Shown here one piece after another: positions 49,208-52,451 of a stretch of DNA of 64,000 nt (position 1 is the stretch's first letter; the number at the start of each line of letters is the position of its first letter). Below the pieces are notes generated by a model. It did no database searches. It was not told the origin of the DNA and saw only the letters and a program-made list of their open reading frames with translations. The translations under genes were made by a program, and so were the position numbers. The DNA is from Leptolyngbya iicbica LK (GTDB lineage: Bacteria > Cyanobacteriota > Cyanobacteriia > Phormidesmidales > Phormidesmidaceae), in NCBI RefSeq assembly GCF_004212215.1, contig NZ_QVFV01000001.1:1126814-1190813 (forward strand), in the 5' to 3' direction.

Positions 49208-50224
49208 ATGTCGACGAGTTTGCAATTTTTTCAGCGGGTGGCGACAGCGTTGACTCGTGGCCCCGTCGCGATCGCTACCGTCATCCATACCAATGGCTCC
49301 ACCCCGCGCGAGGTCGGGGCTAAATTGATGCTCGCCAGCGACGGCGATGCTTGGGGCACCATTGGCGGCGGCGCGGGGGAAGCCAAAGTGTTGCGCCAGG
49401 CCCAAACGGTCTTGCAGACGGGGCAACCCCAAACGGTTGCGATCGATCTGTCCGGTGCGCCCCATCGGGAAATTCAAGGCATTTGTGGCGGTCACATGCA
49501 GGTATGGGTCGCGCGGTGGCAGGGGGAGAGAGCGATCTCGATCGCCCAACAAATTGTGGAATCCTTAACTCGCGGCACCGCCGTTACCCTCACCCTTCCT
49601 CTTAATGCCGAGGAATCGCCGACCGTGGCCCCCGTTGAGCCTCATACCGTCACGGCAATCCATTCCCCAGAGCAGTTTCAGGAAACGCTGCTGCCGTCGC
49701 CACTGTTGCTCATTGTCGGCGCGGGACATTGCGGCATACAACTCGCACAAGTCGCCCACCTGGCCGGATTTCGCATCATGGTGCAGGACGAGCGCCCCGA
49801 GTGGGCCAGTCCCGACAACTTTCCCCAGGCGGAGCAGTTGTTTCATGAGCCGATAGGGAAAGTGATGGGGGCGATCGCCCACTACAGCCAGCTCTACGCG
49901 GCTCTCGTCACGCGCGGCATCGACTACGACCTGCCCGCCCTGCAAGCCCTCATCACCCGCCAGCCCCCCTGCACCTACCTCGGCATGATCGGCAGTCAAA
50001 AGCGTGTGACCAAAGCCCTCCAAGCGCTGCAATCCCAGGGCATCGATTCTCGGCAAATCCCCACGCTACACGCCCCCATCGGCCTCGACATCGGTGCCCT
50101 CACCCCCGAAGAAATCGCCATCAGCATTTGCAGCGAGTTGATTATGGTGCGGCGCGGCGGCACGGGTCAGCCTCTATCCGTCAGCGCCAAAGCCACTCTA
50201 GTCAGGTCAGCAGGCACTCATTAG
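49208..50224 (+). CDS. xdhC: XdhC/CoxI-family molybdenum cofactor insertion protein
   Basis: A 338-residue accessory protein that binds molybdenum cofactor, aids its sulfuration and delivers it to XdhB. The N-terminal XdhC/CoxI part (HTNGSTPREVGAKLMLASDG, WGTIGGGAGEA, GICGGHMQV) is followed by a Rossmann domain (LLIVGAGHCGIQLAQVA near 170) and the closing ISICSELIMVRRGGTGQPLS. It lies 27 bp after xdhB in the operon. Confidence 0.93.
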   Translation: MSTSLQFFQRVATALTRGPVAIATVIHTNGSTPREVGAKLMLASDGDAWGTIGGGAGEAKVLRQAQTVLQTGQPQTVAIDLSGAPHREIQGICGGHMQVWVARWQGERAISIAQQIVESLTRGTAVTLTLPLNAEESPTVAPVEPHTVTAIHSPEQFQETLLPSPLLLIVGAGHCGIQLAQVAHLAGFRIMVQDERPEWASPDNFPQAEQLFHEPIGKVMGAIAHYSQLYAALVTRGIDYDLPALQALITRQPPCTYLGMIGSQKRVTKALQALQSQGIDSRQIPTLHAPIGLDIGALTPEEIAISICSELIMVRRGGTGQPLSVSAKATLVRSAGTH

Positions 50225-50298
50225 GTTGCGAGAATTAGCGAGTGCCTGATAACCCCAGTTCAGTTTCTGACTTTCAAATCTGTAGCAAAGGTCGGCTG

Positions 50299-50634
50299 CT
50301 AGGCGGCGTCTCTCACAGCCCTCTCTTCGCGCACTGAAAACTCTGGCAGAGCCATTGCTGATGTTGACATCGCCTCAGTCTCAATTTGAGCGTAGTTACG
50401 ACACCGAATATCCACCCACAACTGATAAGAGCTACCGGCAGCCGCAATTAGCGTCTGATAGTCTCTGCCCAATGCACAAGCTACTTGATAAGCCTTGTCG
50501 CGATCGCGGCTAGGAAAGGTTCGCGCTAATGACATGATGAGGTTTTGGTACAAAAGCGCTTCGCGAATTTCGCGACCGTCGTAATACTTAAAGACGTTCA
50601 ACTGGAAGGCGGGACACACAAATGGATAGGCCAT
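50299..50634 (-). CDS. Unknown 111-aa protein, paralogue of 51182-51514
   Basis: A small soluble protein of unrecognised family. The first 85 residues (FVCPAFQLNVFKYYDGREIREALLYQNLIM..., GSSYQLWVDIRCRNYAQ) align without gaps to the neighbour at 51182-51514; the C-termini differ. The conserved core has CPAFQL, GEIREA-like, DRDxAY and WVDIRC motifs. No signal or membrane segment. A shared upstream motif suggests co-regulation. Function unknown. Confidence 0.7.
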   Translation of the reverse strand: MAYPFVCPAFQLNVFKYYDGREIREALLYQNLIMSLARTFPSRDRDKAYQVACALGRDYQTLIAAAGSSYQLWVDIRCRNYAQIETEAMSTSAMALPEFSVREERAVRDAA

Positions 50635-51181
50635 GAAACCGAGAACATGTCAGCAAAGAACATAACGGCATAGGTAAAAGAATATTTATTTGTAAATAAC
50701 TATAGATAAATCTTTGGCGAGAGATAATCAACCTTTCGGTAGAAACTCATCAGCCATTAGATAGATAGGGTTGCCTGATTTGAGGCAGTTACTCTTGCAA
50801 TTCCTAATTTTTGCAAGACATGAGTGGCTGAAGTGTGGCTTGCCGACAGCCTTGAATCAAGTTACTGGGTGAACTACCGACATGGGTTGTTGCCTTTTTG
50901 CCATTTGTAGTGCACGGGGCCGATCGCGACTCAATACCCCGCTGGCGAAGGATGCCCCGGGACAGGCTGAGCGTGGAGCGATCGCGTTCTGTCTAGGGTC
51001 AGGCGGGAAAAGAGACCGACTTGGCAAGTAGGGCGGAAGCAGGTGTGCAGCGATCGCCCCCACCTTGACAGCCTGAGACATCGCCCCAGCCCATAAATAC
51101 AGAATCCCCCTGCGAGCCAAAATGGAGGAAGGGGGAGGGAGTCGGCATCATTGAGTTTTCAAAGCAGTCGATAAGGCCACG
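50635..51181. other. Spacer between the paralogue pair
   Basis: About 550 bp without a supported gene. Near the left edge, 50685-50728 carries the TGTAAATAA...ATAAATCTTTGGCG element also found before the second paralogue, overlapping the dyad TTATTT-GT-AAATAA. The right part contains HIP1 octamers only. Confidence 0.45.
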
Positions 51182-51514
51182 CTAAGCCACATCTCGCGAC
51201 CATGGCCCTTGATGAATCGAAGCCACCGGACGCGCTACAGCAGACTCAGTTACGCGGGCCAGAACTTGAGAGTAGTCACGACAACGGATATCGACCCACA
51301 CCTGATAACTGCTACCGTCGGCAGCGATGACAGTTTGATAATGCTGCCCAAGTGCCGAGGCAAAGCGATACGCCACATCGCGATCGCTGGCAGAAAAGCG
51401 CTTAGCCAGGGTCATGATGAGGTTTTGATACATCGTGGCTTCCCGAATTTCACCGTGATTGTAAAACTTGAAGCGCTTGAGCTGGAAAGCGGGACAAACG
51501 AAAGGTAGGGGCAT
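51182..51514 (-). CDS. Unknown 110-aa protein, paralogue of 50299-50634
   Basis: The core PFVCPAFQLKRFKFYNHGEIREATMYQNLIM and GSSYQVWVDIRCRDYSQ matches the preceding gene at more than half of the positions. The ATG at 51514 is used; a TTG three codons upstream is also open. Upstream, TTGTAAATAAATCTCTGGCG (51558-51577) matches the region before the other copy. The pair arose by local duplication. No function is recognised. Confidence 0.7.
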   Translation of the reverse strand: MPLPFVCPAFQLKRFKFYNHGEIREATMYQNLIMTLAKRFSASDRDVAYRFASALGQHYQTVIAADGSSYQVWVDIRCRDYSQVLARVTESAVARPVASIHQGPWSRDVA

Positions 51515-52451
51515 AGGGAACAAACTTTAGACAAAAATGTAATTATTGATACGTAAACAATTGTAAATAAATCTCTGGCGGATATCAATTGTTTTAATTG
51601 AGACTGTCGAAGTTGATGGGTTCAAAAAAGTTGGCCTCGACAAAGGCCGAAGGAACTTACCTGAGTCAACAGTCCAAAAGCGCTTCTCAGAAATAGTTTC
51701 ACGCTTCCACAGCAGCTTGAGCATCTTTTCAAGAACACCAGCCGCTCCTGAGCCAGAAGAGTTAGAGTTGTATTATTTGTTTATCCGTGCCGACCAGCCG
51801 CGGATAAATCAACTGCTGCGTCCAGGTATTTTGCCGACTTCAGTCTGTCGTCTATAGGTCATACCAATCGTCCATGACGCTGGCGCGACATCCCCAACGA
51901 TAAACAGGTGCGATCTCTGGGGTGTTAGGAACCGGGTGCCTATTCGACTCAGCCGCTAACCCGCAATTATCAAGGCACCCGGTCCCTGGCAGGGTCTATT
52001 TTTAGAGCAGCGGCCCATGACGCTGACGCGCCACTCCAAACAATGAAAACCGGGAATATCTCGGAGGCACTAGGGGACGGGTCCCTTTGGGAACCAGGAC
52101 GATACCGCTAGAAGCAGCACAAGAGACCCGTCCCCTGACGGGGCGATCGGGGCGCTATTTTCAGAGCAATTCTTCTGAAGCAGGACGACAAAACCCGTGA
52201 CTTCAAAGCCTCTCTCCTTTTCTTGAATGCCCCTTGGGCTATAGCTTGGGAGCGAGGTTGGGGAGAGGGCCAAGCGTATAGGTAAAGTACAGAACGCAGA
52301 ATATGGGCAGCGCGGACATCTGACTCACGGGTTATCCAACGACCCTTGAGACGACTGGAGTAATTCATCCGAGCATCCGAGAGCTGGCTAAGGTGAATTC
52401 TGCCGCGATCGCCAACTGCCCCAACCCACAGACCGACGACTCCTCGTGGTT
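51515..52451. repeat. Repeat-rich spacer with two palindromes
   Basis: About 940 bp without a credible gene. Two related units each start CCATGACGCTG(G/A)CGCG (about 51873 and 52016) and lead into a palindrome. The palindromes are ACCGGGTGCCT (51931-51941) with AGGCACCCGGT (51973-51983), and AGGGGACGGGTC (52072-52083) with GACCCGTCCCCT (52125-52136). The second arm word also occurs at 43175. These look like small non-coding mobile or structural repeats. Confidence 0.65.

Follow-up and report, generated by a model that had tools for sequence, protein, structure and literature searches.

The window analysed here, 64,000 nucleotides of the Leptolyngbya iicbica LK genome, carries two neighbouring small genes of similar sequence, which we call P1 and P2. 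An initial annotation had seen in them a small family placed under common control by an element kept before both start codons. Which family do these genes belong to, and could a known regulator act on both of them?

P1, P2 and their protein family

P1 (50299..50634, minus strand, 111 aa) and P2 (51182..51514, minus strand, 110 aa from an ATG; a TTG start is also open and gives 51182..51523, 113 aa) were aligned over their full length by BLASTP, with 64 of 111 residues identical (58%, E 2e-45). Two minus-strand open reading frames (ORFs) at this level of identity agree with the paralogue pair described initially, coordinates included. The similarity had then been confined to the first 85 residues; the alignment reaches the C-terminus, where RD(A/V)A is common to both proteins. 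Selection at the protein level acts on P1 and P2, since their dN/dS was 0.165 over 87 codons, a rough value because dS (1.69) is near saturation. Neither protein had a convincing match in Pfam, NCBIfam or PHROGs, and the best PHROGs match (E 0.016) was regarded as chance. Searching the PDB by sequence returned a single weak match per query (E 0.78 and 0.74), neither of them a kinase.

The proposed small family was borne out and extends far beyond a pair, with 145 distinct members among the loci that we gathered. A profile made from 11 sequences, one row of which had two mistyped N-terminal residues, found matches in 13 of 386 phylum-wide genomes, LK included; in four of these 13 the sole match was weak (E 3.9e-4 to 8.1e-4) and fell on a DUF7469-type or DEP-domain protein, which leaves nine firm. 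Among 95 relatives, again counting LK, 62 had a match (in three cases no more than a weak one, E 3e-5 to 9e-5), with up to seven copies per genome. The search for further copies in the LK genome itself, which the annotation had called for, yielded a third one on contig 4. Named hosts from the scan of genome contigs include Nodosilinea, Leptolyngbya, Phormidium, Roseofilum and Halomicronema. Scanning genome contigs with a single sequence detected no relative, tblastn gave no plasmid-borne relative at E ≤0.1, and literature searches found nothing on Npun_F0813, DUF7469 or the P1/P2 family. For the family profile, 8 of 61 rows were left out (five DUF7469/DEP proteins and three divergent ones); another selection from the 61 rows left out 15, giving 46 sequences plus the consensus and later 23 plus the consensus. 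From a set of 27 loci the weak L168 was left out, and 20 of the other 26 loci were then used together with the window pair. Judged from their sequences, P1 and P2 are tandem paralogues within an unnamed multicopy family of small cyanobacterial proteins. In a tree of the 145 members, P1, P2 and the two copies of the relative G389 grouped together (100/92) within an 11-member clade (100/94), in a bootstrap that had not settled and with many deeper forks unresolved.

Part of the family profile was also recognized in DUF7469/Npun_F0813 (PF24276, NF045621), whose N-terminal ~85 residues match it over 58 columns (hhalign probability 87.5, E 3.6e-6 for a single comparison). Unlike P1 and P2, DUF7469 proteins are ~220 aa long with a further region, and from this partial match they may be fused members of the family. 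PF24276 matched two of 11 family members with a best E of 0.016, and neither PF24276 nor NF045621 was listed for P1 or P2 at E ≤1. Weak family-profile matches were seen as well in the N-terminal ~85 residues of DUF7469-type proteins at L024, L025, L027 and L041, and in the part preceding the DEP domain at L026.

The neighbours of the pair are xanthine-dehydrogenase-type genes. Adjacent to P1 and convergent with it is a plus-strand ORF (49208..50224) that we take to be an XdhC-type gene (xdhC). Between the convergent xdhC and P1 ends, an inverted repeat (50205-50254; 15-nt arms, 87% complementary) could be a shared terminator. The relative G389 (taken as Halomicronema sp. CCY15110), the only one seen with the pair, has tandem copies A and B beside xdhC as in the window. 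Decay of one copy in relatives had been named as an argument against the pair, and in this one relative neither copy has decayed. Two ORFs that look toxin-antitoxin-like by eye separate the second G389 copy from xdhC (L068:2260-2993). At the DNA level, copies A and B share 91% identity; their nucleotide identities are 83% and 80% to P2 (P2 and copy A compared over 87 codons), and 67% and 64% to P1. As both are nearer to P2 than to P1, the comparison suggests that the xdhC-side copy underwent gene conversion or re-duplication.

The upstream element and candidate HLR1 boxes

RpaB is a light/redox regulator. The HLR1 sequence to which it binds has an 18-bp consensus, KTTACAWW-N2-KTTACAWW, according to PMC13421787 and PMC11633204. 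Aligning the promoters of P1, P2 and copies A and B revealed two TTTAC-like half-sites with 10 bp spacing. The shared upstream element thus exists, although the initial annotation had matched up half-sites that do not correspond: before P2, TGTAAATAA is the first TTTAC half-site, before P1 it is the second, and in the promoter alignment TTATTTACAAAT of P1 stands opposite TTGTTTACGTAT of P2. Another part of the element, CGCCAAAGATTT before P1 (50708..50719, minus strand), does align with its P2 counterpart CGCCAGAGATTT (51569..51580, minus strand) and partly with copy A. The exact string GCCARAGATTTATYTAYA occurs only at its own two sites in the 5.7-Mb genome. It was rejected as a regulon motif, with 24 matches at ≤3 mismatches versus 23 for a reversed control.

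The candidate HLR1/RpaB box of P2 (51550..51567, minus strand) reads TTTACAATTGTTTACGTA, with one mismatch to KTTACAWWNNKTTACAWW. The P1 site (50689..50706, minus strand; TCTATAGTTATTTACAAA) is degenerate, with three mismatches and the second half-site intact, and the boxes of copies A and B have zero and two mismatches, respectively. When the 150 nt upstream of each gene were shuffled by dinucleotides, the fraction of shuffles reaching the observed HLR1 score was 0.002 for P2, 0/3000 for copy A, 0.034 for copy B and 0.11 for P1. By this measure, the resemblance to HLR1 is strong for P2 and copy A, suggestive for copy B and not significant alone for P1. The initial annotation had named absence of the motif from orthologous promoters as evidence against its proposal; the motif is kept perfectly in copy A and more weakly in copy B. 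The distance between the box and the matching start codon is also similar, with 53 nt for P2 and 54 nt for G389 copy A.

A sigma-70-type promoter was predicted for P2 (51560..51588, minus strand; TTGATA-17-TACAAT), the -10 of which overlaps the first HLR1 half-site and the -35/-10 spacer of which contains CGCCAGAGATTT. It is the sole sigma-70-like match in 50200-51800, a count not significant by itself since shuffled sequences gave a mean of 1.5. A TATAGT at 50704-50699 is a possible P1 -10 by eye. The upstream element resembles a core promoter on which a candidate HLR1 box is superimposed in part.

We also examined how HLR1 sites are distributed over whole genomes. The LK genome encodes an RpaB candidate (359.5 bits; NF045944 cut-off, 330). 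At ≤1 mismatch, it contains 15 HLR1 sites versus 11 for the reversed pattern, five of which are HLR1-like sites offset by 1 bp (three with ≤1 mismatch, two with 2), so that six genuine control sites are left; at ≤2 mismatches the counts were 104 and 82. HLR1 site counts in LK are hence barely above the controls. In G389, 21 HLR1 sites were found at ≤1 mismatch versus eight reversed ones, two of these being shifts, and the copy A box is among four perfect HLR1 sites in that genome. None of the 15 LK sites lies within an ORF of ≥150 aa, as against three of the six genuine controls. Ten of the 15 recur at a syntenic place in G389, nine of them by blastn (≤20 nt) and that of P2 via a gene anchor. 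Two of the six genuine controls recur too, one of them within a 278-aa ORF, and conservation alone is therefore not decisive. Genes following near-consensus sites in LK include psb34, sigD, psbA (a fragment), allophycocyanin beta and, from the look of its sequence, a second sigma factor; the sites of psb34, sigD, psbA and the second sigma factor are among those recurring in G389. Before psb34 (NF033486, 83.2 bits) the LK genome has tandem HLR1-like sites with two and zero mismatches (G000:C1:1395939-1395977, L093), and psb34 of G389 is also preceded by two HLR1-like sites.

Within the family, boxes are scarce. Searching up to 200 nt upstream of the 145 members gave five with a box at ≤1 mismatch and nine at ≤2, compared with zero and three for the reversed pattern (two of the three overlap HLR1-like sites) and zero and 1.25 for shuffles. 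Control of the whole family by HLR1 was rejected on the basis of nine box-bearing members versus three reversed. The nine include P2, both G389 copies and the close relatives L049 and L051; the seven-member sister clade has no box at ≤2 mismatches. Since most members are without HLR1, the box is probably lineage-specific, and from the upstream sequences HLR1 control looks confined to the Halomicronema branch; G453/G459 may be another instance.

Possible control by RpaB

The initial claim of common control thus found support for P2 and its orthologue copy A, weak support for P1 and none family-wide, and its candidate basis is the known HLR1/RpaB box. On these sequence comparisons, RpaB control of the pair is moderately supported. 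We tentatively propose, with a confidence just short of even, that P1 and P2 are RpaB-controlled, probably high-light-induced small binding proteins, the case for P2 being the firmer of the two. An HLR1 box would overlie both the -10 and the start of the promoter from which P2, and less certainly P1, is transcribed. As long as light is low, RpaB would occupy this box and keep RNA polymerase out; once light is high or conditions are reducing, it would leave and the gene would be induced, as for hli genes. Release by light is proposed because of the published position rule, set out in PMC13421787, by which HLR1 represses from -38 to +23 and activates from about -45 to -66. If the predicted P2 promoter is real, transcription would start at ~51553 and the box would extend from about -14 to +4, inside the repressing range. 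The overlap of the predicted -10 with the box likewise suggests repression in low light.

The same elements would be seen if a core promoter had been copied at duplication and the TTTAC repeat had arisen by chance in AT-rich promoter DNA, RpaB being uninvolved. Indeed, the conserved block spans the predicted -35/-10 spacer together with the -10, the P1 match falls within the shuffle range, and HLR1 sites in LK only slightly outnumber the reversed pattern. However, both half-sites have been kept in P2 and copy A despite differing flanks, perfectly so in copy A, and the P2 score was reached by 0.2% of shuffles; we consider this explanation somewhat unlikely. Alternatively, the true start could be further downstream and the box activating, in which case RpaB would recruit the polymerase and the pair would be made in low light. 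With 53 nt from the beginning of the P2 box to the ATG, the -45 to -66 range given in PMC13421787 would be matched if transcription began at the ATG or right beside it. P2 would then have hardly any leader, and a -10-like hexamer lies within the P2 box, making an activating box distinctly unlikely.

A further possibility involves no light response: the pair might serve the adjoining xanthine-dehydrogenase-type genes, in maturation or regulation, and xdhC does adjoin it in both genomes seen to carry it. The convergent orientation of the pair and xdhC speaks against co-transcription, and in G390 the xdhC orthologue (76%) is on the same contig as all four family members but far from them. The nearest relatives of the pair also have other neighbours, and we hold a role in this pathway to be highly improbable. 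Among other relatives, G388 has an xdhC match at 47% and is without a family member, and G386 and G387 gave no match to the window xdhC at E 1e-20.

Under the favoured reading, RpaB control, the pair resembles the HLR1/NblS-RpaB regulon (hli, nblA, psa, psb) in having an 18-bp half-site pair over the predicted start in a genome that encodes RpaB. It differs in that its candidate targets belong to an unnamed protein family and in that the P1 box is degenerate. Small cyanobacterial proteins induced by high light include HLIPs, SliP4 and Psb34, HLIPs having a membrane helix. P1 and P2 are similarly small and under candidate RpaB control; unlike these proteins, they are predicted to form a soluble alpha/beta domain and have no Pfam or NCBIfam link. 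If the proposal is true, uncharacterised, probably soluble proteins would join the RpaB light-acclimation regulon, and a multicopy family (up to seven per genome) without a Pfam or NCBIfam entry would gain its first regulatory handle.

Predicted fold and signalling neighbours of other members

To what these proteins might bind was approached through structure prediction and through the neighbours of other family members. AlphaFold2 models were obtained for P2 (mean pLDDT 82.4, pTM 0.71, 28 sequences) and for a relative (mean pLDDT 85.9, pTM 0.76, 22 sequences). In P2 numbering, both models have a short first strand, strands at ~14-19, 22-29 and 32-41 and a helix at 42-55, followed by strands at 61-65 and 69-75 before a terminal helix, with low confidence past ~92. 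P1 and P2 are thus predicted to be compact single domains, each with a sheet of about five strands, one main helix and a flexible tail. The initial suggestion that divergent C-termini set partner choice did not hold up, as the tail has a pLDDT of ~50 and the same RDxA end, and our tests gave no link to a partner.

The order of strands and helix in the two models is like that of a protein kinase N-lobe, and kinase chains filled 48 of the 50 top VIA-align rows for the P2 model and all 50 for the relative's. The best Z scores were 6.0 (84 residues, 3.6 A) and 6.5 (86 residues, 4.5 A), both below the caution threshold of 8, and kinases are abundant in the PDB. Unlike kinases, P1 and P2 had no Pfam kinase match at E ≤1. 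Foldseek returned no match at E 0.001 or better for either model, with designed proteins, Ski-type domains and homing endonucleases ranking first for the relative's model, and a viral fold library gave no match at E ≤0.001. Unless shown otherwise, the resemblance of the models to the kinase N-lobe is taken as a common arrangement.

Clustering the neighbours at 62 loci by single linkage gave, as raw counts over flanks of 1.5 to 6 kb in which many loci are orthologous and non-independent, a receiver-like protein 28 times, a histidine-kinase-type cluster 19 times and a sigma-factor cluster nine times. Other clusters were metabolic genes from the same Nodosilinea-type loci. Eight of ten signalling-looking neighbours of other members, picked by hand, had histidine kinase, receiver, PAS/GAF, EAL, STAS or sigma-70 domains, and the other two had no domain match. 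By eye, the ORF list at 46-56 kb held no signalling neighbour of the window pair. From the neighbours of other members we infer, weakly, that P1 and P2 could be small binding modules that would tune some component of signalling or transcription as the cell acclimates to light. A wider hypothesis, which we think very unlikely, is that the family consists of free-standing, kinase-N-lobe-shaped binding domains of two-component and sigma systems, from which the Halomicronema pair would have been recruited to the RpaB high-light response. With a degenerate receiver, a sigma factor and kinases beside other members, a signalling role would be directly testable.

The receiver-like neighbour matched receiver domains by profile comparison (probability 97.4) and had no Pfam match. 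Encoded at L082:2262-2705, it is found upstream of the family members of one clade; similar ORFs were seen at L142-L150, L152 and L153. By eye, it has LVILVG where receivers carry the phospho-acceptor Asp. Some members are followed, at a distance of a few hundred bases, by a principal-looking sigma-70 gene, identified with Pfam at L161:4400-5518, and the look of the sequence points to a similar arrangement at L030, L033, L055, L160, L163 and L166. At L071:2135-3319, a gene encoding HisKA and EAL domains is overlapped by 14 bases by a family member.
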